A stretch of 33,035 bases of DNA from Micavibrio sp. GTDB lineage: Bacteria > Pseudomonadota > Alphaproteobacteria > Micavibrionales > Micavibrionaceae. Location of the stretch: contig NZAJ01000017.1 of NCBI GenBank assembly GCA_002687495.1, positions 1-33,035 of the forward strand, given 5' to 3'. The translations under genes were made by a program, and so were the position numbers. The notes under the pieces were generated by a model. The model saw only the letters and a program-made list of their open reading frames with translations. It was not told where the DNA came from and did no database searches. Positions 7,915 to 32,383 of the stretch are shown here, in pieces. Positions within the stretch are counted from its first letter, which is position 1; each line of letters opens with the position of its first letter.

Positions 7915-8628
7915 ATGAGTGAATCTATTGCTGAGAGCCCCCAAATTACTGATCTATCAAAAAACGATATACTGGATTTCTTGAAAAACAACCCTGCTTT
8001 TTTACAAGAAAACCCAGATGTCTTAGAAGCCCTTATTCCGCCTAAAAAGCGCCCTATGCGCGGCAAGCCTGCTGATTTTCAAGCCTATGTCATTGAGCGC
8101 CTACGCGCAGACAAACAAGAAATAAGCCAAACTGCGGAAGAGCTTATCCAGAATGCGCGCGCCAATATGAACAATCAAAGCCGCATCCATGAAGGCGTTC
8201 TACGCCTCCTTGAAGCACAGCGTTTTGATGATTTCATCCATGCTATGACTATGGATTTACCAAGCATCCTTGGCGTAGATATGGCCGTATTCGTAGTCGA
8301 AGCCGATGGCGAGCAAATTCCACATATCCAAACAACAGGCATTCGCGTGCTACCGAGTGGAACCATCGATAAATGGATGGAAGGCAAAGACGTTCTTCTC
8401 CAAGATAATATCAGCGGTATCGAAGCCATCTATGGCGGTGGCGCAACGCTTGTGCGCTCTCAAATTTTACTGCGCATCGGTATCTCTATGGATACGCCGC
8501 CAGCAATCCTTGCATTTGCCAGCCGCGAGCCTGATATGTTCAATGAACACCAAGCAACAGACCAAATCCTCTTCCTGGCCCGCGTCATAGAGAGATGTTT
8601 CCGCACATGGCTGAATATAAGAGCATAG
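7915..8628 (+). CDS. DUF484 family GAF-like protein
   Basis: A 237-residue DUF484 protein. The N-terminal segment DILDFLKNNPAFLQENPDVLEAL (about 18-40) is the family hallmark. A helical linker with a basic patch (PPKKRPMRGKPADFQ) and a coiled helix (55-95) follow, then a GAF-like domain from about 100 to 235 (FDDFIHAMTMDLPSILGVDM, AVFVVEADGE, ILAFASREPDMF). The role of the family is unknown; the gene is regularly placed just before xerC in proteobacteria. Here the coding regions overlap by 34 bases (8595-8628), which implies one transcript and translational coupling. No Shine-Dalgarno precedes the ATG, which fits the leaderless promoter proposed above. Confidence 0.93.
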   Translation: MSESIAESPQITDLSKNDILDFLKNNPAFLQENPDVLEALIPPKKRPMRGKPADFQAYVIERLRADKQEISQTAEELIQNARANMNNQSRIHEGVLRLLEAQRFDDFIHAMTMDLPSILGVDMAVFVVEADGEQIPHIQTTGIRVLPSGTIDKWMEGKDVLLQDNISGIEAIYGGGATLVRSQILLRIGISMDTPPAILAFASREPDMFNEHQATDQILFLARVIERCFRTWLNIRA

Positions 8629-9569
8629 AACTTAGCCTGCTTGCGAGCTGCGCCCCTAATTTAGAGAAAATCCTGCATCAATGGCAAGATTACCTCAAAA
8701 TCGAAAAGCGCGTCTCACCGCATACTTACCGTGCCTATTGCAGCGATGTTAGCCACTTCATCGGCTTCCTGCTTAAGCATCATGGTGGCGAATCCCCTTC
8801 TCTACGCACCCTCGCCGATCTAAAGATTAGCGATTTCCGCAGCTGGATGAGCAAGAAAGCCATGGAAGGCACAGCCAACGCTAGTCGCGCCCGCTCACTC
8901 TCTGGCGTTAAAAATCTCTATCGCTGGCTTGATAGGCACGGCACTTTGCACAACCCTGCAATCAACACGCTCTACACCCCCAAATTGCCGCATAAACTGC
9001 CCAAACCTTTACATGAAAACCAAGCCATGCGCATTTTAGAAAATGCCGACCTGCTCTGCAAAGAAGACTGGATCGGCCAACGTGATCGTGCCCTTTTCAC
9101 ACTCCTTTATGGCTGCGGCCTGCGTATCGACGAAGCCCTCAAGCTCAATATAAGCGACCTCCCCAACCAAGACGATAAATTCCTACGCGTTCTAGGGAAA
9201 GGCTCAAAAGAGCGCATCGTGCCGTTCATCTCCATCGTGCGCGAGAGCATAGAAGCCTATATACAGCTCAATCCTTACCCCATTGATAAAACCCGCCCGC
9301 TTTTTATCGGCGCCAAAGGACAGCGCCTACATCAAGGCGTCGCGCAAAAAGCAATGCGCGCCTTACGCTCAACTTTAAGCTTACCGGAAACAGCAACGCC
9401 CCACGCTCTGCGCCACAGCTTTGCCACGCACCTGCTGCAAAACGGCGCAAATTTAAGGGAAATTCAAGAGCTCCTCGGCCATAGCTCTCTCTCAACAACA
9501 CAGCGCTACACAGAAGTAAATGCCGAAGAACTCATGCGCGTCTATAAATCCGCACACCCCAGAGCTTAA
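8595..9569 (+). CDS. xerC: Tyrosine recombinase XerC
   Basis: Site-specific recombinase that, with XerD, resolves chromosome dimers at dif during division. The 324-residue product has an N-terminal SAM-like core-binding domain (about 22-118) and a catalytic domain with Arg177 (GCGLRIDEAL), Lys202 (LGKGSKERIVP), His270 and Arg273 (HALRHSFATHLL), His296 (LLGHSS) and the nucleophile Tyr305 (TQRYTEV). All catalytic residues are intact. The start is uncertain: 8595 follows a GAGAG very closely, while an ATG at 8607 is four codons downstream. It overlaps DUF484 upstream and, by 4 bp at its stop, the convergent patatin gene. XerC rather than a phage integrase is supported by length, partner gene and high similarity to the Xer motifs. 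Confidence 0.93.
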   Translation: MFPHMAEYKSIELSLLASCAPNLEKILHQWQDYLKIEKRVSPHTYRAYCSDVSHFIGFLLKHHGGESPSLRTLADLKISDFRSWMSKKAMEGTANASRARSLSGVKNLYRWLDRHGTLHNPAINTLYTPKLPHKLPKPLHENQAMRILENADLLCKEDWIGQRDRALFTLLYGCGLRIDEALKLNISDLPNQDDKFLRVLGKGSKERIVPFISIVRESIEAYIQLNPYPIDKTRPLFIGAKGQRLHQGVAQKAMRALRSTLSLPETATPHALRHSFATHLLQNGANLREIQELLGHSSLSTTQRYTEVNAEELMRVYKSAHPRA

Positions 9570-19197: not shown

Positions 19198-22098
19198 TTA
19201 AACGCTTAGCGCTTCATCAACCAGCTTCGCTTGTTCATCTTTATGGCGGCTCATTAGACCTGTCGCAGGTGCTGCGGCTTCTTCACGGCCAACATAAACA
19301 GGGCGTTTTGCCTTAATATCGACCTCAGCCAAGACCTTCTCAATACGGCGATCAACAAAGTGCCAGTAACCCTGATTTTCAGGCTCTTCCTGACACCAAA
19401 CAACATCAGCATTCTTATAAGGTGCAAGCTCAATCGCAAGTGCTTTATCCGCAAATGGGTAAAGCTGCTCAAGACGTAAGATCACAACATCATTAATACC
19501 GCGATCACGGCGCTCTTGAAGCAGATCGTAATAAACCTTACCTGTACAAAGAACAACACACTTCACCTGATCTGCTGGCGCCAATGAATCACGATCATCA
19601 TCCCAAAGCACGCGGTGGAACGTACTACCCTCCGTAAAGTCCTCAGTCTTAGACACTGCCAATTTATGACGTAGCAATGATTTAGGCGTAAACACAATCA
19701 AAGGCTTACGGAAGTCACGATGCATCTGACGTCTCAAAGCATGGAAGATATTTGCTGGCGTTGTACAATTTACAACCTGCCAGTTATCTTCAGCCGCCAT
19801 CTGCAAGAAACGCTCAGGACGTGCAGATGAGTGCTCTGGCCCCTGCCCCTCATAACCATGCGGCAGAAGAACAGTCAGACCACTCATACGCAGCCATTTT
19901 GATTCACCAGATGAGATAAACTGGTCAAACATAACCTGCGCGCCATTAGCAAAGTCACCAAATTGCGCTTCCCAAATAACAAGCGTTTTCGGATCAGCCA
20001 ACGAATAACCATACTCAAAACCAAGCACAGCCATCTCAGATAGCGGGCTGTCATGCGCTTCGAATAAAGGCTGATCAGGCGCAAGGTTCTTCAAAGGATA
20101 ATATTGAGAGTTATCTTCTTGATCATACCAGATTGCATGACGGTGTGAGAATGTACCACGGCCAACATCTTGCCCTGACAAACGCACAGAATAACCTTCT
20201 TTAAGCAACGAACCGAAAGCCAAAGCCTCGCCCATCGCCCAATCATACCCCTCACCGCTTTCAAGCATCTGCTTTTTAGCATCCAAGATACGGCTTAGTT
20301 TTCTATTAATATTAAATCCTTCTGGAATATAGGTCAGAACTTTACCAAGCTCATCAACCATATCCTTGGAAATATCTGTCTTTCCGCGACGATCATCCCC
20401 ATGCGCAACTTTAAGACCATCCCAAGCGCCGCCAAGGAAATCAGCCGCATTTGGTTTAAAGGTTTTTGTTGCTTCAAAGGCATCTTCAAGCTCAGAATAT
20501 ACTGCATCCATATAGCCATTACCTTCATCTTCAGAGATAAGCCCCTCAGAGATAAGCTGCTTCATATATTTGATACGCGTAGAATCTTGCTTCGCAATCT
20601 GCTTATACATCAATGGCTGTGTGAATGCAGGCTCATCACCTTCATTGTGGCCATAACGACGATAACAATACATATCGATCACAACATCACGGCCAAACTC
20701 CTGACGGAATTCAGTCGCAATACGCGCAACATGCACAACAGCTTCAGGATCATCACCATTCACATGGAAGATCGGCGCTGATAACATCTTTGCGACATCA
20801 GTTGAATAAGGACCAGAACGTGAGAATTTCGGCATAGTCGTAAAGCCGATCTGGTTGTTAATCACAATATGGATTGTACCGCCTACGCGATAGCCAGGAA
20901 GCTCAGAAATCATCAATGTTTCAGCCGTAATCCCCTGACCGGCAAACGCTGCATCACCATGAAGAACAAGCGGCATAACAGCCGTATCTTGCGCGCCGCC
21001 ACGCTGCATTTGCTTCGCACGCACTTTACCGATCACAACCGGGTTCACAAACTCAAGGTGAGATGGGTTCGCCGTCAAAGACAAGTGAACATTATTACCA
21101 TCAAAATCACGGTCACTTGATGTACCAAGGTGGTATTTCACGTCAGCAGAGCCAAGCACATCATCAGGAATAGAGGACTGACCTTGGAACTCAGCAAAGA
21201 TCGTTGTAAATGGTTTACCCATAACGTTTGCCAGCACGTTCAAACGTCCGCGGTGCGCCATACCAATAACCATTTCCTTAAGGCCAAGCTGACCACCACG
21301 TTTAGTGATTTGCTCAATCAAAGGAATAAGAGCTTCACCACCATCAACACCAAAGCGCTTTGTACCAGGGTATTTCTTGTGCAAGAACTGCTCAAACCCT
21401 TCAGCAGCGGTAATGCGCTTCAAAATCGCTTTCTTACCTTCAGGTGTAAAATCTGTCTTGTTGCGTGGCTGCTCAATACGCTCTTGAACCCACTTCTTTT
21501 CTTCAGGGTCAGACAAATGCGTAAATTCCACACCAATCGTACCGCAATAGATTTGCTTCAAAGCCGCTATGATCTGATTACAGCTCGCGCTCTCCATACC
21601 TAAAACACCATTTAGATAGATAGGACGCCCCATATCTGCAGGGGTAAAGCCGTAATGCGCTGGATCCAGCTCAGGGAAGAGGCCTTTTTCTTTCATGCCT
21701 AACGGATCAAGATCAGCCATACGGTGACCGCGAGAGCGATAAGCACGAATAAGCATCAAAGCACGCACAGAATCTTCCGCCGCTTGCTTGACTTGCGCTT
21801 CTCCGATAATAGTACCGCCATTAGCAGCAGGCGCATCAACCTGATCATGCGCACCAACATCACCATCAGAAGGGTCTGTGCCAAATCCATGTGAAGTTCT
21901 GCGATTTTCTTCAGGCGTCCAACTCGCGCCAGATAGCTCAACCAACAAAGCTGCTTCATCATCCGCTAGATCGTTAAAAAACGCGCGCCAGCTCTCATCA
22001 ACATGTGATGGGTTCTTCCTATATTGCATATAAAGATGCGCGATATATTCGCCGCTTGGCCCTGATATAGCAGATAGATCCAGTGCTGTTTCACTCAT
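19198..22098 (-). CDS. sucA: 2-oxoglutarate dehydrogenase E1 component
   Basis: Thiamine diphosphate-dependent decarboxylase of 2-oxoglutarate that transfers the succinyl group to SucB. The 966-residue product has the N-terminal segment that contacts E2 (residues about 17-41, EYIAHLYMQYRKNPSHVDE), the conserved RAYRSRGH (about 118-125), the thiamine diphosphate motif GDAAFAGQG (381-389) through INNQIGFTT (413-421), GHNEGDEPAFTQP (483-495), and the transketolase-like C-terminal half with LPHGYEGQGPEHSSARPERF. Length matches the family. I chose the ATG at 22098 (MSETALDLSA) because AAGGG lies eight bases upstream; a frame open 20 codons further is unlike the family. Two small acidic paralogues lie upstream on the same strand. 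sucB is 3 kb away, beyond the thiamine genes. Confidence 0.97.
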   Translation of the reverse strand: MSETALDLSAISGPSGEYIAHLYMQYRKNPSHVDESWRAFFNDLADDEAALLVELSGASWTPEENRRTSHGFGTDPSDGDVGAHDQVDAPAANGGTIIGEAQVKQAAEDSVRALMLIRAYRSRGHRMADLDPLGMKEKGLFPELDPAHYGFTPADMGRPIYLNGVLGMESASCNQIIAALKQIYCGTIGVEFTHLSDPEEKKWVQERIEQPRNKTDFTPEGKKAILKRITAAEGFEQFLHKKYPGTKRFGVDGGEALIPLIEQITKRGGQLGLKEMVIGMAHRGRLNVLANVMGKPFTTIFAEFQGQSSIPDDVLGSADVKYHLGTSSDRDFDGNNVHLSLTANPSHLEFVNPVVIGKVRAKQMQRGGAQDTAVMPLVLHGDAAFAGQGITAETLMISELPGYRVGGTIHIVINNQIGFTTMPKFSRSGPYSTDVAKMLSAPIFHVNGDDPEAVVHVARIATEFRQEFGRDVVIDMYCYRRYGHNEGDEPAFTQPLMYKQIAKQDSTRIKYMKQLISEGLISEDEGNGYMDAVYSELEDAFEATKTFKPNAADFLGGAWDGLKVAHGDDRRGKTDISKDMVDELGKVLTYIPEGFNINRKLSRILDAKKQMLESGEGYDWAMGEALAFGSLLKEGYSVRLSGQDVGRGTFSHRHAIWYDQEDNSQYYPLKNLAPDQPLFEAHDSPLSEMAVLGFEYGYSLADPKTLVIWEAQFGDFANGAQVMFDQFISSGESKWLRMSGLTVLLPHGYEGQGPEHSSARPERFLQMAAEDNWQVVNCTTPANIFHALRRQMHRDFRKPLIVFTPKSLLRHKLAVSKTEDFTEGSTFHRVLWDDDRDSLAPADQVKCVVLCTGKVYYDLLQERRDRGINDVVILRLEQLYPFADKALAIELAPYKNADVVWCQEEPENQGYWHFVDRRIEKVLAEVDIKAKRPVYVGREEAAAPATGLMSRHKDEQAKLVDEALSV

Positions 22099-22206
22099 AA
22101 TTTTACCCTTCACATATGTGTCGTCTAATATTTGGTATAATGGACTTAATCCTATCAAACACGAAAATCAAGCCCATAGTGTACTGTAAAGCTTTAAGCT
22201 TGTTTA

Positions 22207-22764
22207 TTACTCATACTCACGCATTAATGTTTTCAGCTGAGAGATATTCTGGCTCTCAACCGAGCTAACATTCATAGGGTGATCCGCATCTTCTGCGCCC
22301 TTACCTAAAAATGTCGCCGTTATCTTGCCAAGCAAAGCCCCAAAAGCACTGCCCTCTTCCGGCTCTTCCTCATCATATTGGATAAACTCGCCATGTGCTT
22401 GCGCAACAGTGACAGCCACCTCATAAAGTGCAGCCTTATATTTCTTCAAATCATCTTTAGGCGCCTTATTCTTCATAAGAGCTAAAGCTTTACCGATCTC
22501 ATCACGCGGATCATAAACATCATCTGCCCATTCGTCCCACACATCTTTTTGAGAGAGCGTAAAACGAGCAATATCATCCACTAAACCAGGGCCATCATAT
22601 TTCTTTGCAACAGCACGAAGGCATGCGCCCAAAGCTCGCATCTCGCGAATATCATCTTCTTCACCCTCTAGATCTTCCGCGTAAGAAATCCAAACACCAG
22701 TTTTATACAGCGCAGAGGCCAGCAACAGCTTTTCTTCTTCTAAAAATATATCAAATTCACTCAC
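22207..22764 (-). CDS. hypothetical acidic protein, paralogue 2
   Basis: A 185-residue, strongly acidic, helical protein with no signal peptide. It is homologous along most of its length to the upstream neighbour: SALYKTGVWISYAEDLEGEE here against SLPYRVGYWISQSDTSGGDD there, and the helix YEVAVTVAQAHGEF here against MEVGEAVALAFREL. The tyrosine/Gly/Trp-Ile-Ser block near residues 18-28 is the best conserved feature. I do not recognise a named family; the acidic helical make-up faintly recalls TerB-like proteins, which I do not claim. The start is a GTG at 22764. It lies 14 bases after its paralogue and 108 bases before sucA on the same strand, so co-transcription with sucA is possible. Confidence 0.8.
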   Translation of the reverse strand: MSEFDIFLEEEKLLLASALYKTGVWISYAEDLEGEEDDIREMRALGACLRAVAKKYDGPGLVDDIARFTLSQKDVWDEWADDVYDPRDEIGKALALMKNKAPKDDLKKYKAALYEVAVTVAQAHGEFIQYDEEEPEEGSAFGALLGKITATFLGKGAEDADHPMNVSSVESQNISQLKTLMREYE

Positions 22765-22778
22765 CTTATAAGCCCCAC

Positions 22779-23339
22779 TTATATCGCGTAGTTAATATTG
22801 AGAGCCTTCGCCAGCCACTCAAGCGCGATACGCTCAGCAGGAGAAATATTTAAGAACTCTTCAAATGTCTTGTAATGCACACCACGTTTCTTCGCAGCAG
22901 ATTCCAACTTTCGATACTCCATCTTAAGCTTCATCTGCGCGATAAAAGAATGATCCTCTAATTCACGAAAAGCCAGAGCCACAGCCTCTCCAACTTCCAT
23001 TATATGCTGTTTGAAAGCGTTAACTTCTTTCTCATCAACCGCTTGCGTTAAAATATAAATCGCACGCTTACAATCCTCAGGCACATCACCCACATTTTCA
23101 CGCCATTTGGGCCACTGCTCCTGCGCGCGCACAGTATGGCTGATGATCACCTGCACAGTTTCACAAACAAAAATTTCGCCCGCATAGCCGTTTAGGATAT
23201 TTGATAGAGCCTGCAATTCCTCTTCATCTGAATCATCCCCGCCTGATGTATCACTTTGTGAAATCCAATACCCCACACGATAAGGCAAGCTGATAAGCAT
23301 TTCGCGATCTTCTGGCGATAAATTATGTAAGAAACTCAT
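22779..23339 (-). CDS. hypothetical acidic protein, paralogue 1
   Basis: A 186-residue helical protein, paralogous to the next gene. It begins MSFLHNLSPEDREMLISLPY and keeps the GYWISQSD block, an acidic loop (SGGDDSDEEELQAL), and a helical core with VQVIISHTVRAQEQWPKWRE. Its C-terminal third (KRGVHYKTFEEFLNISPAER) differs from the partner and is more basic. There is no signal peptide or membrane segment. A GGGTATGGG ribosome site precedes the ATG at 23339. The gene starts 131 bases downstream of the sucD terminator on the same strand. The pair may act as a heterodimer; that is inference. Function unknown. Confidence 0.8.
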   Translation of the reverse strand: MSFLHNLSPEDREMLISLPYRVGYWISQSDTSGGDDSDEEELQALSNILNGYAGEIFVCETVQVIISHTVRAQEQWPKWRENVGDVPEDCKRAIYILTQAVDEKEVNAFKQHIMEVGEAVALAFRELEDHSFIAQMKLKMEYRKLESAAKKRGVHYKTFEEFLNISPAERIALEWLAKALNINYAI

Positions 23340-23489: not shown

Positions 23490-24365
23490 TTAAGCAGCCA
23501 TAGCTTTAAGCATTGCATCACCAAGACCCGCTGGGCTTTCTGATACAACAAAACCAGCATCGCTCATCGCTTTCATCTTAGCTGGCGCAGTATCATCAGC
23601 ACCAGAGATCAACGCACCAGCATGGCCCATACGCTTACCTGGAGGCGCTGTAGCACCAGCAATAAAGCCAGCAATCGGCTTCTTGTTAGACAAACCTTTA
23701 TAATATTCCGCAGCTTCAATCTCTGCAGTACCACCGATCTCACCGATCATAAGGATACCTTCTGTCTCTGGGTCTTCCATGAACAACTCGATACAATCGA
23801 TAAAGTTTGTACCATTCACTGGGTCACCACCAATACCGATACATGTTGATTGACCAAGACCAACTGCGCCAGTCTGTGCAACAGCTTCATATGTCAATGT
23901 ACCAGAACGTGAAACAATACCGATCTTACCGCGCTTATGGATGTGACCTGGCATAATACCAATCTTACATTCATCAGGTGTAATGATACCTGGACAGTTA
24001 GGACCGATAAGGCGTGTTTTAGAGCCCTGAAGCGCTGCTTTAACCTTAACCATATCCAAAACTGGAATACCTTCAGTAATACAAATCGCAAGCTCAACCT
24101 CAGCTTCAATAGCTTCAATAATAGCTGCTGCTGCAAATGGAGGCGGAACATAAATCACAGACGCATTACAGTCTGTCGCATCTTTAGCTTCCTTAACAGT
24201 GTTAAACACAGGCAGACCTAAATGCTCTTGACCACCTTTCTTAGGCGTAACACCACCAACCATATTTGTACCATAGGCAATTGCCTGCTCAGAGTGGAAC
24301 GTACCTTGCGCACCTGTAAAACCCTGACAAATAACTTTTGTATCCTTACCAACCAAAACGGCCAT
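23490..24365 (-). CDS. sucD: Succinyl-CoA ligase alpha subunit
   Basis: With SucC, converts succinyl-CoA to succinate with nucleotide triphosphate synthesis. The 291-residue protein has the CoA-binding Rossmann start [19 protein letters not shown], the conserved [17 protein letters not shown], and the phosphorylated His248 in [12 protein letters not shown] chose the ATG at 24365 ([12 protein letters not shown]), with GGAG about ten bases upstream; a frame open 14 codons further is not family-like. Unusually it is separated from sucC by about 1.4 kb that holds a plus-strand gene and a sucC terminator. It has its own terminator, so it is transcribed as a single gene. Confidence 0.97.
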
Positions 24366-24520
24366 TTCAATCTTTCTCCATATTAAGATTCGAATTCGTG
24401 GGCTCATTTAACGCCCTGCAGGATTCAAAATCAACCTATGAATACCGAAAAAAGCACTGAAATTAAAAAAAACTTCACTTTTAACGCTCATAATAACGTT
24501 GAAAGAAAAAAGCATTGAAA

Positions 24521-25579
24521 ATGAGCACACCTAAAGACCCAGTTTCGTCCCCCTTGGAATACCAAATCAAAGCGCTTTGGGATAAGGCTGCTGACAATAA
24601 ACTTGAAACGGGCATTCCGTATAAATATGGCGACAACCTCCCCACCGTACCAGCACACTTAAGAGCGCAAATTGAAGCTCACTGCATAGAAACAGGCATC
24701 CCTTATATCGCCGCAGTGAGCCTTATAGCAAGTGAAAGCGGTTTTAACGCTAAAGCCATAAGCCCCACAAAGGCAGCAGGGCTAGCACAAGCAAACTCAA
24801 ACACTTTATTTGAAACCCTATACAAACTCGCCCAAGACGGACTTTTAACAGAAGATCACAACGCTCTCATTTTAGATAATATAGAAAAATACAACTCCGC
24901 AGAACCAGGAAGGCCTTATTGGTGGAGCTACCGCATCAAAGATGACGGCGATGAAAAAGCCATCAGAGCCTTAGCACACGATGAAGATATCGGCCTCAAA
25001 GTCGCTTTCCACCATATGGAGTTCAGCATTAAAGAAGGCACACGCATATACAGAAACAATATCATAGGTCGAACAGATTGGATGGGCGAAAACGAAAAAA
25101 CAATTATCAAAGCTCTGCAAGAGCGCTCAGCAAGCTCACCCACTAACCCGACCTTGGAGCAAGCGGAAAAACACAATTCTGTTGTCACAAACGGCTTTAA
25201 CCGTATAGCAGAGCTAAACACACGCATTGATGCCATTAAAGATGAGCTTCACCGCACATTCACAGTTGCTGATTTAAAAGTTTTTTATGTGTGTGGATCA
25301 CAAGGCGGCGCAGGGCTCCTTGAAGCTCTAGCGGACCCAGTTAAGCGCGCACAAAGACATCGTGCAGCAGATTACGTCCCGAGAAATATCGTAGAGAGTA
25401 ACGAAGCTCTTTTTTACAAAGATTACCCCGAAAACAAAACATTTTTCGATGTCAGTGAGTTTTACGAAAACATCATTAACAAAGTTGGAACCACCCCACT
25501 ACCTGAGCATCTTATCACACGTATTAAACCAGAAACACCAGAACCCCCGCCCCTTCTACTCGACCCTAACAAGCCTTAG
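24521..25579 (+). CDS. Lysozyme-like (SLT) domain protein, no signal peptide
   Basis: A 352-residue protein with a transglycosylase-like segment at about 60-100: AVSLIASESGFNAKAISPTK followed by AAGLAQANSNTLFETL. It carries the catalytic Glu72 in the ESGFN motif and the SPTxAAGLAQ motif of lytic transglycosylases of the SLT family. Further on are KVAFHHMEFSIKEGTRIYRN and VFYVCGSQGGAGLLEALADP. The last 20 residues are proline-rich (PEPPPLLLDPNKP). I see no signal peptide or membrane segment, so a secretion route outside Sec is implied if it acts on peptidoglycan. I prefer the ATG at 24521; a TTG at 24515 would add two residues. It lies between sucC and sucD on the opposite strand. Domain call by motif only. 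Confidence 0.75.
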   Translation: MSTPKDPVSSPLEYQIKALWDKAADNKLETGIPYKYGDNLPTVPAHLRAQIEAHCIETGIPYIAAVSLIASESGFNAKAISPTKAAGLAQANSNTLFETLYKLAQDGLLTEDHNALILDNIEKYNSAEPGRPYWWSYRIKDDGDEKAIRALAHDEDIGLKVAFHHMEFSIKEGTRIYRNNIIGRTDWMGENEKTIIKALQERSASSPTNPTLEQAEKHNSVVTNGFNRIAELNTRIDAIKDELHRTFTVADLKVFYVCGSQGGAGLLEALADPVKRAQRHRAADYVPRNIVESNEALFYKDYPENKTFFDVSEFYENIINKVGTTPLPEHLITRIKPETPEPPPLLLDPNKP

Positions 25580-25735: not shown

Positions 25736-26938
25736 TTATGCAGCCAAAGCTTCACGAGTTGCTTGAACAACTTTCGTCGCAGCATCTTCTAGATCATCCG
25801 CTGCAATAATTGGCAGACCAGAATTCGCCATAAGCTCTTTACCTTTTTCAACATTTGTTCCTTCAAGACGAACAACCAAAGGCACGCTTAAATTCACTTC
25901 TTTAGCAGCCGCAATCACACCTTCTGCAATCACATCACATTTCATGATACCACCAAAGATATTAACCAAGATCCCTTTAACATTCTCATCAGAAAGAATG
26001 ATTTTAAAGGCTGTTGTCACGCGTGCTGCTGTTGCACCACCACCAACATCCAAGAAGTTAGCAGGCTCGCCGCCTTTAAGCTTAATGATATCCATTGTAG
26101 ACATCGCCAAACCTGCGCCATTAACCATACAACCAATGTTACCGTCTAGACGAACATAAGAAAGCTCATTATCAGCCGCGATCTTTTCATTTTCATCTTC
26201 TTCAGTTTCATCACGAAGCGCCGCTACATCCGCATGACGATAAAGCGCATTAGGATCGAAATTGATCTTAGCATCAAGCGCCATCACATCATCACCAACT
26301 GTAATCAGTGGGTTGATCTCCACGATAGAAGCATCAAGCTCGATATACATTTTGTATAGATTTTTGAAGAATGGGATCGCTTTTTCTGTCTTCGCTGCAT
26401 CGAACTTCAAGCCAGCCGCAACAGCCTTAGCATCTTCATCAGTCATACCAGCAACTGGATCAATCGCAACACGAACAATCGCATCTGGATTTTCATGAGC
26501 AACTTCCTCAATCTCCATACCACCTTCTGTAGACACCATGAATGTCACTTTTGATGTACCGCGATCAAGAACAACTGAACAGTAATATTCTTTATCGATA
26601 TCCACGCCATCAGTAACATAAAGGCGCTGAACTTCTTTACCCTCTGGGCCAGTCTGCTTAGTCACAAGCACTTTACCCATCATCGCCTCAGCGGCATCTT
26701 TAACTTCATCAATTGTCTTACAAAGACGAACGCCACCCTTACCTGATGGATTATCAGTAAAGTGACCCGCGCCACGTCCACCTGCATGGATTTGCGCTTT
26801 AACAACATAAAGAGGAATATCGCCGAGGTCTTTAGCCGCTTGCACAGCCTCACCAACGCTCATAGCTGGAATGCCTTTAGGCACAGCCACGCCATATTTC
26901 TCTAGTAATTCTTTTGCCTGATATTCATGAATATTCAT
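25736..26938 (-). CDS. sucC: Succinyl-CoA ligase beta subunit
   Basis: The nucleotide-binding, ATP-grasp subunit. The 400-residue protein begins [17 protein letters not shown], the near-invariant start, and has [12 protein letters not shown] (about 46-57), [23 protein letters not shown] and the signature [16 protein letters not shown] near residues 321-336. The ATG at 26938 has GGAGAG about eight bases upstream. It is usually followed directly by sucD, but here a terminator and a plus-strand gene come first. Upstream, towards mdh, the three-gene plus-strand module intervenes. In alphaproteobacteria this gene and sucD are usually consecutive in the TCA series. Confidence 0.97.
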
Positions 26939-27203
26939 CTGGTATGCTCTCCATTTCCGATGGAATCAATATAAAAACTCTTCACGATACTTACCCCCCT
27001 GCAAAGACGATTGCAACCCCGTATTTGGGATAAACACACGGAAATATATACAATGCCAATTATTATTAACATAAACTTAACCATTTCTTAAACCTTAGCC
27101 GTCATAATTCACGATAAGCACCCCCACAAGAGGTGTAAACGCACATATTAAACAAGAATAATAAACGCTAAAAATAGCGGATACTGAGGAGTAAGACAGA
27201 AGA

Positions 27204-29150
27204 ATGGCACCCCCAAACAGCACAATAGACAGCATCGCTTTCGCAGAGCAGCTCATCGCTGAAGGGGTTATCTCACGCGCTACATTTGATCGCCTAGCAA
27301 ATGAAGAAAGCGAAAAATTAAAAAATGCAGCCGATCTTTTTAGCGGCGCGTCAGACAATAGAGAACGCGCCTTCATACTCTATAACGAAGCTTTAGCCGG
27401 AATCGGCCACACAAACAGTGCATTTTCTCAAGATAGCAAAGAGCAAAAGAAACAGAAAAAAGAAAAAGAGCAAAAAGAGCAAGCCGCAAAAGTGCTTCTC
27501 GACATCATAGAAACAACAAGGCAAACGCAAGAGATCATCAACAAGGCAATCGCACGCCACCAAGCGAGCATTAAGCAAATTGAAATTATACAAAAGCAAA
27601 TCCAAGATGAAAAACAGCTCTTCTGCGATGAGTTAGAAAAGAAAGAAAAAAACGGAGACATAACCGCCCCAGAGCGTCAAGAAATAGAAGAAGAGCTAGA
27701 TCAAAAAATTGAAGAAGCCGATCTCTACCTTCAAAAAGCAACGGAACTAGAACAGCAAAATATTTCCATGCAAAATGAAATCTTCAGCAAGATGGATAAC
27801 CTCCCTGTCGAAGTTCAAAAGCTTTTCAATGAATCAATGGAAATTGGAACGCAGTTGGTCACAATACCTTTACAAATTGAAGGTGTGACGCAACAGCATC
27901 ATGTCGTACATCAAAACGAAGACGGCCAATTTTTCATTACGCACCCCGAAACAGGCCAGGCAATCTTCATCAAAGATGAAGCAGCGCAAGCAGCTATAAA
28001 AGCTTCACCAGATGGCAAACTTGGCAATAAAGCCCCTAAACTTGCAGAGAAATTTAACCAGAACTATCTAGACGCAATAAGCAAAGGTCGAAAGCTAGGC
28101 TATGGTGAGAACATTAAAGAAATAGCACAACTCATCACCAATATTCGTCAAAACGATATTGCTATTAAAATCCATAAAGATCAGGCCGAAAAATTCAAAA
28201 AGACATTGCAGGATTTAAGAGCAGAAATAAAAGACTTAACCCCAGAAGAAATTAAAGAAAAAATCAAGAATTCTGGCCATGAACTTAAAGCGCTAGAAGA
28301 TAGTATCAAAGAGACAGCCAAGACACTCAGCAAAAGCACCGACAAGCTAGAGCAAAGAACAGGTAAACTTGATGATCTTTTGAAAGAGCTTAAAAAGGCG
28401 CAACAAGCACAAGAAAACATCAAAGATGTCCATGCAGTGACAAGTAAATTTATCGGCGAATTTGAAAACCGCCATGACCAATTAGAAGATAAATATCTTG
28501 GAAAAATGCTGACATGGGCAAGTGCTATCATACCCGTCAATGAGACAACATCTTGGCTATACGCTTCCACATTCTCAAATAGTGAACTTGCACAAGCCTG
28601 GAAAAACCCGATCAGCCATAACGGTCAAGGTGTTTACCAAGATAATGAGACAGCTGAGCTATACACCTATACGGAAGAAGGCGGAAGAAAATACATCAAA
28701 GATCCTGAAGTTCTTACCGAACTTTATAAGCAAGCCTATCAAGATAAAAAATTCTTCGTTAATGAAACACCGCAAATGAATGATGACGAAGTACGTGATC
28801 CAAATAATACATATGCAATGACGAGCGAAGCGATGCTTGATCGTAAAAAAGCACTAGAGACAACAACGAAAACAACTGTTGAAGCAAGCGAAGAAAACTA
28901 CCAAAAAATCAAGCAGCGTTATCAAGAAGAAAAAGAGCGCGCACAAGCGCAGCAAAATACTACACCTCCGCTTAAAAACGACTTCACAGCTTCAGCCGTG
29001 CCGCAAGCGGATAAAAAGCCTGATAGTGAATATATCAACGCCTTTAATACACTTGTCACAGCCAAGCCAGACGCACAAACACCCGCCTCTCAGCCAGAGA
29101 ATAATACGCCTTCAAAAACACACCATTTTGAAGAACAGCGCATCATATAA
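27204..29150 (+). CDS. Long coiled-coil protein, first gene of a three-gene module
   Basis: A 648-residue unrecognised protein. Residues about 75-215 and 300-430 are highly charged heptad-type coiled coils (DSKEQKKQKKEKEQKEQ and following; KELKALEDS-like repeats). Between them lies a compact beta-rich part, HHVVHQNEDGQFFITHPETG, and after the second coil a globular segment with TWASAIIPVNETTSWLYAST, then GVYQDNETAELYTYTEEGG. The last 80 residues are low-complexity, Gln/Pro/Asn-rich. There is no signal peptide. GAGGAG lies about 12 bases before the ATG. Its two successors on the same strand (29274 and 30057) are close and look like an operon. The 265-base gap upstream holds no other gene that I can support. 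Confidence 0.75.
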   Translation: MAPPNSTIDSIAFAEQLIAEGVISRATFDRLANEESEKLKNAADLFSGASDNRERAFILYNEALAGIGHTNSAFSQDSKEQKKQKKEKEQKEQAAKVLLDIIETTRQTQEIINKAIARHQASIKQIEIIQKQIQDEKQLFCDELEKKEKNGDITAPERQEIEEELDQKIEEADLYLQKATELEQQNISMQNEIFSKMDNLPVEVQKLFNESMEIGTQLVTIPLQIEGVTQQHHVVHQNEDGQFFITHPETGQAIFIKDEAAQAAIKASPDGKLGNKAPKLAEKFNQNYLDAISKGRKLGYGENIKEIAQLITNIRQNDIAIKIHKDQAEKFKKTLQDLRAEIKDLTPEEIKEKIKNSGHELKALEDSIKETAKTLSKSTDKLEQRTGKLDDLLKELKKAQQAQENIKDVHAVTSKFIGEFENRHDQLEDKYLGKMLTWASAIIPVNETTSWLYASTFSNSELAQAWKNPISHNGQGVYQDNETAELYTYTEEGGRKYIKDPEVLTELYKQAYQDKKFFVNETPQMNDDEVRDPNNTYAMTSEAMLDRKKALETTTKTTVEASEENYQKIKQRYQEEKERAQAQQNTTPPLKNDFTASAVPQADKKPDSEYINAFNTLVTAKPDAQTPASQPENNTPSKTHHFEEQRII

Positions 29151-29273
29151 ATTAAGAGTTTCTTAAAAAAATATTAACCTTTTATCTATATATTCAGGGC
29201 ATGAACTGCATAAGGCTTTTTTGAAAGTTTTTTGCACTCAATACTAAGGATAAAACTAAGGGTATTTTTTTAA

Positions 29274-30011
29274 GTGAAAGACAGAAAAGACATTGGGGGT
29301 TTTGATTTTGAAGCGTATGAAAATAACGCTCAAAATAATGTCTCACTTTTCAGAGATAATATCCCTACTGACCTTCTCAATAATGCAAAAGATTTTGCTC
29401 TCGATAAAAACCCTGCTTTGGCCCAATATTTAGGCACTCTAAGTGTTGAAGATCGTGTAGCGGCTATAAAAAAATCAGTCGAATTTATGCAGCAAACTTT
29501 GCTTAAAAATAATCAGGAAAACACACCCCAAAAAAGCTCTAAATTATCGCAGCAATTTAAAAGCGCAGACCCACTAAAAGACAGCACAATAGATGACACT
29601 TTATTACTCGCTTTGCTGCACCAACATCAAAGCGTTTTGAACGATCAAAATAACGAAAACGGAGAGGATCTAGACAGCATAGATTTCCAACGCAATTTCA
29701 AATATGAAGAGCTTCAAGAAATCTTAGCAAGCTACCTTTCCGATCACTATATTCAAAAAGGAATATCTCCTATTTCTTTAAGTGATATTGAAGCAGATTA
29801 TGGCCATGAGTTAAGCGACTATGAATTTAAAATTGTAAAACAGCAGCTCGAATTAAATGGCATAGAACTGGGTGATGATTTTGAACTAAAAGCAAAAGAA
29901 ATAGAGCTCAAAAACAACCCTGAAGCTGTTGCAAAAATCGAAGATCCAAAACCGGAAGATTTAAATTACAAACCACCGCAGCAAACACCAAACACAAGCT
30001 TTATAGGCTAA
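29274..30011 (+). CDS. hypothetical acidic protein, second gene of the module
   Basis: A 245-residue soluble helical protein starting from a GTG at 29274; an AAGGG lies about 12 bases upstream and no ATG is near. The N-terminal part DIGGFDFEAYENNAQNN is Asn-rich, the middle is a long helical stretch, and the end KPPQQTPNTSFIG is a proline/glutamine tail like those of the other orphan proteins. It contains no cysteine that I can see, no signal peptide and no membrane segment. The gap of 123 bases before it is AT-rich with no convincing terminator or promoter. I do not recognise a family; a chaperone or adaptor role for its neighbours is inference only. Confidence 0.7.
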   Translation: MKDRKDIGGFDFEAYENNAQNNVSLFRDNIPTDLLNNAKDFALDKNPALAQYLGTLSVEDRVAAIKKSVEFMQQTLLKNNQENTPQKSSKLSQQFKSADPLKDSTIDDTLLLALLHQHQSVLNDQNNENGEDLDSIDFQRNFKYEELQEILASYLSDHYIQKGISPISLSDIEADYGHELSDYEFKIVKQQLELNGIELGDDFELKAKEIELKNNPEAVAKIEDPKPEDLNYKPPQQTPNTSFIG

Positions 30012-30056
30012 AAAAGAACAGAAAAAACGCATTAAAAACGTAGGAATAAATAAAAA

Positions 30057-31322
30057 ATGGCTGAAGCCGAAACAACAACACCAGCAGAAGAAAACATAAG
30101 CCCACCAACAGGTAGCGGCTTAAGTGCAACTGTAAATGCTGCAGCAAAAGGTGATGAAAAGCCGGCAGAAACGACTGCACAAACTCCTCCTAAAGACACA
30201 CCTGTAGAAACACCTGTAGAAACAGCAGAACAAGCTGAAAAAAGAAGAACAAGCGAAAAATTTAAAGCCGCTGCTGAAGCAAAAAGACAGGAAGAACTCA
30301 AACTTATCAATCAGAAAAAAAACGGTGGTCACGCGTATTTTTACGATGATAATGGCAACCGCGTTATCACCGGAGAAGAGCAATATGGCGATATAGGCGA
30401 CGTCCTCAATAGCTTCGTTCAAATGCTCTTTCAAATCTTCTCACAAGAAGGACGCGAATATCTCGCCATGATCTCTTATAACGAGAATTTAGACACTTAT
30501 GTAGATGAGGTGGAAAGAGCGAGCCGTGCAGCAGATCAAGCCAATGTGAACGCTAACGATCCTAACAGTAAAACACCAATAAACATCCTCACACCAGAAT
30601 CGCATTTAACAATAAGTGAAACTCAAAACGCGCTTCAAGCACTCTCACGCTTGGAAAATCTTATCATGGCTAATGAGTCTAGCGGTGATGCCAATGTGAT
30701 TTATGATTACAGAAGCCAGCTCCCAGCATTCGCGGGTAAAAACTATAACGGCCTTCAACCGGGCGACACCACTGCAGGAGGTCTGGTAGTGCCTGACATC
30801 ACAACGCTGTCTGTAGGCGAAGTTATTGAATGGCAGAAAAAATACATCCGAGAACAAAGAGATTATCATGATCGTGATTTCCCGGACGGCATCCCTATTT
30901 CGCTTGCAGCAGATAAGAGTGAAGAAAATAAACAGCGTTTAAACTCAGCTTCTGATCGCGCCCAAGGAATTTACCGCTCAAGTGCTGTGGGGCGATATCA
31001 GTTTACCTACAGCCGCTTAGAACAACTGGGTATCGATGAGAATATGAAGTTTGATGAAAACGGCCAGCGCTTGATAGCGCGCGCCAGCATGTGGGATCTC
31101 ATCAAGCATGAATCAAGCAAAGAGCAATATAAAAACGCCAGTGCCGAAGAAATATCCGAAGGGGTCACAAAGCGCCTCATGACCGAATGGGAAGGCCTAA
31201 AGAATGTAGATCCAAATGCTCTACAAAAAATAACAGCAGACCTTCTTAGAAACGCAAGCCAAGTCGATGAGCTAAAGATTGCCCACAATCAAAGCACAGG
31301 CGGCAACACGCCGAGCGTATAG
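30057..31322 (+). CDS. Muramidase-like protein with low-complexity N-terminus, third gene of the module
   Basis: A 421-residue protein. Residues 1-75 are an Ala/Thr/Glu/Pro-rich tail that includes two copies of a 12-base coding repeat (30198-30221). A short beta segment GHAYFYDDNGNRVI (about 91-104) and a helical region (110-200) follow. The C-terminal half resembles phage-type muramidase or lysozyme folds: Glu207 in MANESSGDANVIYDY (catalytic position of the Glu-Ser-Gly type), VGEVIEWQKKYI, and SSAVGRYQFTYSRLEQLG near 308-325, which matches the AAGRYQ hallmark of lambda-type and related lysozymes. No signal peptide. AGGA lies about 12 bases before the ATG. It converges with mdh, and the mdh terminator fills the gap. 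Family call is by motif only. Confidence 0.75.
   Translation: MAEAETTTPAEENISPPTGSGLSATVNAAAKGDEKPAETTAQTPPKDTPVETPVETAEQAEKRRTSEKFKAAAEAKRQEELKLINQKKNGGHAYFYDDNGNRVITGEEQYGDIGDVLNSFVQMLFQIFSQEGREYLAMISYNENLDTYVDEVERASRAADQANVNANDPNSKTPINILTPESHLTISETQNALQALSRLENLIMANESSGDANVIYDYRSQLPAFAGKNYNGLQPGDTTAGGLVVPDITTLSVGEVIEWQKKYIREQRDYHDRDFPDGIPISLAADKSEENKQRLNSASDRAQGIYRSSAVGRYQFTYSRLEQLGIDENMKFDENGQRLIARASMWDLIKHESSKEQYKNASAEEISEGVTKRLMTEWEGLKNVDPNALQKITADLLRNASQVDELKIAHNQSTGGNTPSV
30198..30221 (+). repeat. Two tandem copies of a 12-bp coding repeat
   Basis: ACACCTGTAGAA occurs twice in a row and encodes the TPVETPVET stretch of the low-complexity N-terminus. Such repeats can expand or contract in register. 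Confidence 0.85.
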
Positions 31323-31399: not shown

Positions 31400-32383
31400 T
31401 TATTTCGCAAACAAGCTTTCAACTGCTGCGCGCTCTTCACGAAGCTCAGCATCTGTTGCATCCATTTTCGCGCGTGAGAACTCATTCACATCCAAACCTT
31501 GAACGATTTCATATTTACCGTCCTTACATGTACATGGATAGCCGTAAATCACGCCTTCTTCTATGCCATATGAGCCATCTGATGGCACAGCCATAGACAC
31601 CCAGTCACCTGCCTCAGTACCAAGCGCCCAATCACGCATATGATCAATCGCAGCAGAGGCTGCTGAAGCTGCAGAAGACGCGCCACGCGCCTTAATAATC
31701 GCCGCACCACGCTGCTGAACAAGAGGAATAAACTCACCCTCATACCAAGATTGCTCGACCTTGCTCATAGCCTCAGAGCCGCCAACTTGTGCATGATAAA
31801 GATCAGGATATTGTGTTGAAGAGTGGTTACCCCAGATTGTCATCTTAGTCACTTCTGTTGAATCCACGCCTGTTTTCTCAGCCAACTGAGAGATCGCACG
31901 GTTATGATCAAGACGCACCATCGCTGTAAAACATGATGGATCAAGATCAGGGGCATTTTGCTGCGCAATCAAAGCATTTGTATTCGCTGGGTTACCAACA
32001 ACCAAAACCTTAACATCACGGCTTGCATGATCATTCAACGCCTTACCTTGTGGGCCAAAGATACCGCCATTAGCCGTTAGAAGGTCAGCACGCTCCATGC
32101 CATCTTTACGCGGCATTGAACCAACAAGAAGAGCATAATCAGCATCTTTAAACGCCACGCTCAAATCATCTGTAGCAACGATGCCTTTAAGCAAAGGAAA
32201 CGCACAGTCATTAAGCTCCATCACAACGCCATTCAAAGCGCCTAGAGCAGGTGTAATTTCTAGCAAATGCAAGATAATAGGCTGATCCGGCCCTAACATA
32301 GCGCCTGAAGCAATGCGGAATAACAAAGCATAGCCAATCTGGCCTGCGGCACCTGTGACAACAACGCGTACTGGATCTTTCAT
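31400..32383 (-). CDS. mdh: Malate dehydrogenase, type 2 (SF1-like)
   Basis: NAD-dependent oxidation of malate to oxaloacetate. The 327-residue protein has the NAD-binding [16 protein letters not shown] (about 10-25), Glu42 at the end of the second strand (LHLLEI), which favours NAD over NADP, substrate arginines Arg92 and Arg98 ([13 protein letters not shown]), the [10 protein letters not shown] motif, Asp159/Arg162 (VRLDHNRA) and the catalytic His187 in [12 protein letters not shown]. The TGAAGQIGY and WGNHSSTQ motifs are those of the cytosolic/chloroplast-like subgroup, not the LDH-like malate dehydrogenase usual in alphaproteobacteria next to sucCD. An AAAGG ribosome site precedes the ATG. 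It has its own terminator. Confidence 0.95.

Follow-up and report, generated by a model that had tools for sequence, protein, structure and literature searches.

A three-gene module between sucC and mdh of Micavibrio sp. appears to be the local version of a cassette of the Micavibrio family that usually occupies the sucC-mdh gap. The cassette would encode one or two long coiled-coil proteins as partners of a peptidoglycan hydrolase, which in this case is of the lambda lysozyme type. The module lies in the window, a stretch of 33,035 nucleotides (contig NZAJ01000017.1 of GenBank assembly GCA_002687495.1) that is the entire contig C17 of a 94-contig, 1.97-Mb draft genome (completeness 90.5%). 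A first-pass annotation of this DNA had placed three consecutive genes on the strand opposite to mdh and sucC, and the list of open reading frames (ORFs) agreed with their positions, as did Pfam domains with the names sucC and mdh (Table 1). We give about an even chance to the reading of the trio as a fast-evolving cassette in which a peptidoglycan hydrolase and its coiled-coil partners are directed at the walls of prey.

The locus was analyzed in a family sample of 104 genomes, in all of which sucC and mdh were placed. Fifty-five linked genomes were picked by hand; in the other 49, the two genes were on different contigs or far apart, or one of them was not located. An insert of 1.5 to 8.1 kb (median, 4.0 kb) separated sucC from mdh in 53 of the 55 linked genomes, the only two without one being G015 and G031, where the gap was about 200 bp. 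Mechanical calling of ORFs of at least 200 amino acids in the 53 inserts gave 133 that ran opposite to sucC/mdh and 13 that ran in the other direction, and 43 of the 53 inserts were wholly one-directional, opposite to sucC/mdh. The insert of G049 was mostly reversed in direction and had a different look. The order sucC, gene 1, gene 2, gene 3, mdh was found in all seven genomes of the window's genus, three of which (G052, G055, and G056) had a fourth, transglycosylase-type gene ahead of mdh. The trio genes therefore do occur together elsewhere, with the same layout in other genomes of the genus and the family, a point on which the first-pass annotation had made its reading depend. In the G051 locus (L015), many ambiguous bases fell within the trio genes (X in the translations), possibly reflecting strain variation or sequence quality.

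A single-sequence search with the third protein matched 8 of the 104 family genomes, its own included, while the genus profile A1 and the family profile A5 matched 35 and 40 of 142 genomes of the order, all of them in the window's family. The third gene of G053 escaped the single-sequence and the profile searches for gene 3. In ARL-13 (G039), a strain of the alphaproteobacterial epibiotic predator Micavibrio aeruginosavorus, the locus at about 639.1 to 643.5 kb encoded a 720-amino-acid protein, a 340-amino-acid lysozyme, and a 325-amino-acid protein, and profile A5 found one lysozyme match of this type in the ARL-13 genome. The dehydrogenase beside the insert was either a close relative of the window's mdh product (mostly 70 to 89% identity) or a distant enzyme of the lactate/malate dehydrogenase family (about 25 to 32%). 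Inserts adjoined both kinds, and G055 had both side by side (L016, 6524-7546 and 7689-8687).

Gene 3 carries a lambda-type phage lysozyme domain. Its product (P0003) has a low-complexity N terminus, an amphipathic or hydrophobic helix at about residues 112 to 131, and the lysozyme domain at about residues 193 to 415, in which the motif NESSG starts at residue 206 and AVGRYQ starts at residue 310. Glu207 was invariant across six aligned proteins of the genus (that of G053 not among them), and Glu207, S308, A310, G312, and Q315 were invariant in an alignment with 48 viral relatives (80 viral loci were kept, and 48 entered the fold alignment). A profile of the catalytic half built from the genus only found other lysozymes of the family at E values down to 1e-16. 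Family profile A5 found 213 relatives on viral contigs, and its best sequences in the Protein Data Bank (PDB) were those of lambda lysozyme (3d3d and 1am7; E = 0.003). A relative in G024 (L018) matched the phage endolysin family phrog_90 at E = 3.9e-19. Against the PDB, genus profile A1 found only unrelated chains, at E values of at least 0.25, lambda lysozyme not among them, and the L018 protein found a single chain (E = 0.38); neither found a relative when scanned against viral sequences. The sole match of P0003 to a genome contig, an Opitutales contig (residues 23 to 70), was a low-complexity match and was rejected.

The fold of the domain was then modeled. With the 48 phage relatives in the alignment, AlphaFold2 modeled residues 190 to 421 with a mean predicted local distance difference test (pLDDT) score of 84.7 and a predicted template modeling score of 0.80. 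In VIA-align, the top rank was shared, at a Z score of 7.0 each, by lambda lysozyme (1am7 and 3d3d) and the cyanophage baseplate protein 8kea; lytic transglycosylases came next at 4.9. The alignment with 1am7 covered 130 residues at a root mean square deviation of 4.6. A Z score of 7 is by itself modest, yet it agrees with the sequence and motif evidence for a lysozyme. Among viral models (BFVD), Foldseek found at E values of 0.001 or better a baseplate hub protein of the Sinorhizobium phage phiM12 (E = 2.3e-4) and an uncharacterized Lentibacter phage protein. The first-pass annotation had read the end of the third protein as phage lysozyme-like and had made its reading depend on a lysozyme fold at residues 195 to 400, a check that did not refute it. 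Motifs, sequence relation, and modeled fold all point the same way, the C-terminal part being modeled as a lysozyme. Judged from its sequence, the predicted lysozyme would cleave peptidoglycan.

As modeled, the domain shares with phage lambda lysozyme and phrog_90 the first-helix glutamate, a SxAxGxYQ-type motif, a C-terminal Trp motif, and the overall fold. In contrast to these, the cassette domain sits behind a long low-complexity and helical N terminus and is encoded in the chromosome at a fixed locus beside coiled-coil genes. Gene 3 of the window also has two long inserted loops that set it apart from its viral relatives.

Other inserts encode hydrolases with different catalytic domains. 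The Pfam, PHROG, and NCBIfam tallies covered 109 of the 138 insert proteins of at least 140 amino acids and left out six genomes, proteins of at least 800 amino acids, and sequences with X. The two largest clusters of insert proteins were centered on lysozymes (28 proteins) and transglycosylases (23 proteins); the former, joined by single linkage, also included SLT, M23, and peptidoglycan (PG)-binding proteins. A member of either cluster was present in 34 of the 53 inserts, and in G035 and G100, a protein closely related to the lysozyme protein was encoded on a different contig rather than in the insert (L065 and L060). Among the 109 proteins, Pfam found SLT in 8, M23 peptidase in 5, PG_binding_1 in 5, and CHAP in 1, and the SMC coiled-coil model matched 6. 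Within the best 25 of 71 PHROG families, the tallies were led by hydrolase-bearing families, with the transglycosylase family phrog_4067 in 18 proteins, phrog_90 in 13 (best E value, 6e-28), and phrog_342, podovirus internal virion proteins with an endolysin domain, in 5.

An N-terminal hidden Markov model (HMM) was built from ten lysozyme proteins. Of the 855 ORFs in 69 loci, it matched 17, namely, the ten training proteins, four more lysozymes, and three SLT proteins. The SLT proteins, from G021, G019, and G075, matched the N-terminal HMM at E values of 3e-14, 4e-12, and 2e-11 and the SLT domain at 1.6e-20, 1.3e-19, and 1.5e-19, respectively. Lysozyme and SLT domains have thus been exchanged on the same N-terminal module in three proteins, in genera g8 and g30, and all three are the second protein of their cassette, like the lysozyme protein of their genus mates (G020; G070, G071, and G079). 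G053 may be a further, weak case in the window's genus (N-terminal profile, E = 0.0032; SLT, E = 0.002, below the cutoff). The module matched 0 of 385 genomes of the class, a sample that held no known-matching genome and so does not show absence outside the family. The hydrolase appears to be built like a polymorphic effector, from a constant N-terminal module and an exchangeable wall-cutting domain.

Further hydrolase-type proteins were observed in these genomes. A 1,010-amino-acid protein with a lysozyme domain near its C terminus is encoded outside the sucC-mdh locus in a member of the window's genus (G052, contig C5; L070, 9618-12650, minus strand). The single insert of G025 encodes two different lysozyme proteins (L061, 5584-7164 and 8332-9249, plus strand) together with a protein of the transglycosylase cluster. 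The insert of G079 has an additional member (L057, 10521-11324, plus strand), a protein with a CHAP domain (E = 9.6e-10).

None of genes 1 to 3 had a significant Pfam match. The gene 1 protein has two small conserved modules (about residues 216 to 262 and 461 to 540) and a disordered C-terminal tail, and its profile matched all seven genomes of the window's genus at the same chromosomal place. Gene 2 is the variable member of the trio and was a singleton in phmmer clustering. Within the genus, the gene 1 proteins had 646 to 753 amino acids, the gene 2 proteins 235 to 1,122, and the gene 3 proteins 363 to 421. Low-complexity tails had been noted on all three proteins, which holds for the C termini of the first two; in the third, the long low-complexity stretch is at the N terminus and there is only a short tail. 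In profile comparison, the small modules tied the gene 1 group to G018 at a probability of 98.6 and to gene 2 of G054 at 94.5; two groups of genus g11 followed at 90.1 and 76.7. Overall, 10 of 190 group pairs reached a probability of 60, so that for most genera only position and general appearance hint at a shared origin of the first gene. A small C-terminal helical domain that by eye seemed common to the gene 2 proteins was rejected, as its HMM matched nothing convincing beyond the training set.

The cassette proteins diverge fast. Within the genus, identity to the window was 25 to 32% for gene 3 and 20 to 24% for gene 1 (five proteins each), compared with 77 to 83% for sucC and 82 to 84% for mdh. 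We then calculated the ratio of nonsynonymous to synonymous substitution rates (dN/dS) for four genome pairs. Between ARL-13 and G038, the ratio was 0.09 for the first gene, 0.05 for the lysozyme gene, and 0.09 for the third gene, compared with 0.02 to 0.04 for four flanking genes; a gene for 374 amino acids on the other strand of the gap also gave 0.09. Between G070 and G071, whose coiled-coil proteins were 38% and SucC proteins 98% identical, the values were 0.16 to 0.29 for the cassette and 0.03 to 0.07 for flanking genes. In the pairs G019/G021 and G091/G092, cassette genes gave 0.17 to 0.27 and sucC, sucD, and mdh gave 0.04 to 0.14, a further flanking gene of G019/G021 (312 amino acids) also giving 0.17. 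The first (coiled-coil) gene of G019/G021 was not computable, and one antisense ORF (dN/dS, 1.12) was ignored. The range of 0.05 to 0.29 indicates that the cassette proteins are real and under purifying selection; they mostly diverge at several times the rate of their neighbors, as would be expected of prey-facing proteins. Together with the layout in all seven genus genomes, these values argue that the trio is more than a chance arrangement.

The same values bear on the idea that the inserts hold domesticated or decaying phage lysis genes in an integration-prone gap, with no present role in predation. The lysozyme domain does belong to a phage endolysin family, and in all 53 genomes the insert was lower in G+C content than sucC plus mdh, by 0.049 on average. 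However, orientation and layout are the same in most linked genomes, the genes are under purifying selection, and no integrase, terminase, or capsid was among the 12 Pfam families found on the 109 insert proteins (E = 0.001). We regard this explanation as highly doubtful.

The absence of a signal peptide from the trio, claimed in the first-pass annotation, was upheld by a crude hydropathy rule, which found no signal-peptide-like start in the three proteins. The rule found such a start in 13 of the 138 insert proteins, 12 of them in the transglycosylase (SLT-type) cluster. These data concern a further alternative, in which the hydrolase acts on the producer's own peptidoglycan during growth, division, or assembly of a flagellum or pilus, and the coiled-coil proteins form a cytoskeletal or polar scaffold. 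Pairs of coiled-coil proteins and hydrolases shape cell walls elsewhere, and the 13 proteins could reach the periplasm by the Sec pathway. The trio, however, has no such start, so that Sec would not bring its enzyme to the producer's wall; machinery of this kind normally evolves slowly, whereas the cassette genes mostly outpace their neighbors; and the catalytic domain has been exchanged. Remodeling of the producer's wall is therefore unlikely in our view, although it is the alternative to be taken most seriously.

We then searched the family genomes for export machines. The type VI secretion system (T6SS) sheath PF05943 was found in 0 of 104 genomes, a control search having found it in E. coli. 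The type IV secretion system (T4SS) ATPase PF03135 was found in 16 of 104, including G000 (partial, at a contig end), and was not found in the trio-bearing genus members G054, G055, and G056. The phage-type contractile sheath PF04984 was found in 3 of 104 (2 over the cutoff), G000 not among them. For ARL-13, the part of the genome paper covered here describes secretion systems of types I and II and reports no sign of types III or IV (PMC3189940). T6SS, T4SS, and phage-type sheaths are thus too rare or absent to be the family-wide route for the cassette. Candidate routes would be type I secretion, flagellar export, vesicles, lysis, or a path that the cassette itself provides. The cassette shares a constant N-terminal part, an exchanged catalytic domain, and the lack of a Sec-type start with polymorphic or antibacterial effectors (of T6SS, T4SS, and similar systems) that bear peptidoglycan-hydrolase domains, but it differs from them in this scarcity of the machines. 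The proposal of the first-pass annotation that the trio is a secreted effector or an apparatus may be correct; for the possible adaptor that it raised, the data on protein 2 spoke neither for nor against.

The C-terminal tails of the first genes often had F..A followed by a Pro-rich stretch. The strict motif, with Pro content, was present in 11 of 137 insert proteins and in 3 of 381 neighboring ORFs. F..A alone was present in 28 of 51 first-gene tails (mean of 10.0 in 1,000 shuffles), in 34 of 83 other insert proteins (20.8 in shuffles), and in 71 of 381 neighboring ORFs; these figures are descriptive, the motif having been derived from the very sequences that were counted. A genome-wide C-terminal export tag was rejected, since 800 kb of ARL-13, about one-third of its genome (719 ORFs), gave two Pro-rich motif tails on nonsignal proteins, neither of them convincing. 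We keep the F..A tail as a feature of the cassette only.

Among podovirus internal core proteins, a hydrolase opens the wall for a channel across the envelope. A self-contained device of this ejectosome-like type, in which coiled-coil proteins would span the envelope as a channel or filament for which the hydrolase would open the wall, accords with the composition of the trio, which resembles a phage ejection set (a long helical protein, a variable protein, and a wall hydrolase, all without a Sec-type start), and with the matches of the hydrolase domain to virion-associated lysozymes (the phiM12 baseplate hub and 8kea). The likeness to the phrog_342 proteins, which also stand beside long helical proteins, is one of composition only. 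No sequence relation of genes 1 and 2 to ejection proteins was detected with Pfam, and the only PHROG match in the trio was a weak one of gene 1 to a tape-measure family (E = 0.0018). We consider such a device quite improbable. Equally improbable to us is a feeding-junction device of epibiotic alphaproteobacterial predators, whose coiled-coil proteins would export themselves or assemble across both envelopes and bear an interchangeable wall-cutting head, independently of known secretion systems.

Under the favored reading, a prey-directed hydrolase cassette, the hydrolase would be carried or held by the coiled-coil protein or proteins, with its N-terminal helix or the disordered tails as the site of binding. 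This complex would leave the predator without the Sec pathway and cut the prey wall locally, and the epibiotic predator would feed through the opening. An analogous enzyme may be DslA of Bdellovibrio, which PMC7511926, in the part covered here, describes as a predator lysozyme that acts on the prey wall. The cassette enzyme, proposed to act likewise on prey peptidoglycan, belongs to a different lineage, has no Sec-type start, and lies among coiled-coil genes; the two are set side by side by description only.

Several results weigh against the favored reading. P0003 alone had no significant Pfam or PHROG match, family profile A5 missed the diverged gene 3 protein of the window at an E value of 1e-6, and the N-terminal HMM did not match the N terminus of that protein. 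AlphaFold2 failed on the lysozyme domain without an alignment (pLDDT, 49; set aside), and the alignment behind the accepted model included phage lysozyme relatives, so that the matches in fold and in sequence are not independent of each other. Foldseek found nothing in the PDB at an E value of 0.001 or better (3d3d ranked 17th, E = 1.7). By our own clustering, 19 of the 53 inserts had no member of the two hydrolase-centered clusters, so a hydrolase at exactly the sucC-mdh spot is not universal. No export machine was linked to the locus. Unlike polymorphic effectors, the cassette had no evident immunity gene: the ORF list of the window holds no further plus-strand gene between the trio members, and no systematic search for immunity genes was made. 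Finally, in the portions of the literature covered here, predation is documented for M. aeruginosavorus and for no member of the window's genus, which may itself be predatory.

Table 1. Features of the trio and its surroundings in the window
Feature	Coordinates	Strand	Description
sucA	19198-22158	-	Pfam domains agree with name
sucD	23490-24407	-	Pfam domains agree with name
SLT-domain protein	24515-25579	+	354 amino acids; Pfam; possible associate of the trio
sucC	25736-26938	-	Pfam domains agree with name
Divergent upstream region	26939-27203	.	Common to sucC (-) and gene 1 (+)
Gene 1	27204-29150	+	ATG start; 648 amino acids; coiled-coil type
Gene 2	29274-30011	+	GTG start; 245 amino acids; helical, Asn/Gln-rich
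Gene 3	30057-31322	+	ATG start; 421 amino acids (P0003)
Lysozyme domain of gene 3	30624-31319	+	As modeled (residues 190 to 421)
Terminator-like stem-loop	31345-31376	-	14 pairs, T-rich tail; between gene 3 and mdh, just downstream of mdh
mdh	31400-32383	-	Pfam domains agree with name

While the three genes of the first-pass annotation stood, a further hydrolase-type gene, that of the SLT-domain protein, lies beyond the span it reported. This gene splits the usual sucD/sucC pair, has the orientation of the trio, and encodes no signal-peptide-like start. In G055, the sucC-sucD gap contains a gene for an SLT protein that also matches LysM weakly, and in G018 it contains one for 351 amino acids. 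Promoter-like sites in the divergent upstream region, numbering 7 compared with 8.1 in shuffles, were no more frequent than expected by chance, and an upstream promoter motif is not claimed, the word counts being dominated by the sucC start. The terminator-like call came from a consensus scan only, which gave 12 such sites in the region compared with 5.8 in shuffles. Between sucA and sucD, the window encodes proteins of 185 and 186 amino acids (22207-22764 and 22779-23339, minus strand) without a Pfam match at an E value of 0.0001; relatives occur there in many family loci. A Phage_integrase-family recombinase is encoded at 8595-9569 on the plus strand (Pfam, E = 1.1e-41).

The first-pass annotation had singled out the trio as a candidate for an undescribed system, and searches of open-access papers, which did not extend to subscription papers, preprints, or supplements, turned up no report on it. 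The parts of PMC3189940, PMC11055950, and PMC5430801 that were covered contain no description of a sucC-mdh cassette. The ARL-13 genome paper lists secretion systems and hydrolases in the part covered, and a word search of its main text found no lysozyme, muramidase, or transglycosylase (PMC3189940). For Bdellovibrio exovorus, an epibiotic predator, the covered part of PMC11055950 states that the feeding mechanisms through the prey envelope are unknown and that the wall of the prey undergoes no massive disruption. A local cut would agree with that report by analogy, B. exovorus being of a different lineage. The sucC-mdh locus is thus a named, testable candidate for the opening of the prey wall in a cultivable predator, ARL-13, and its naturally exchanged wall-cutting domains are a comparison set for prey range.

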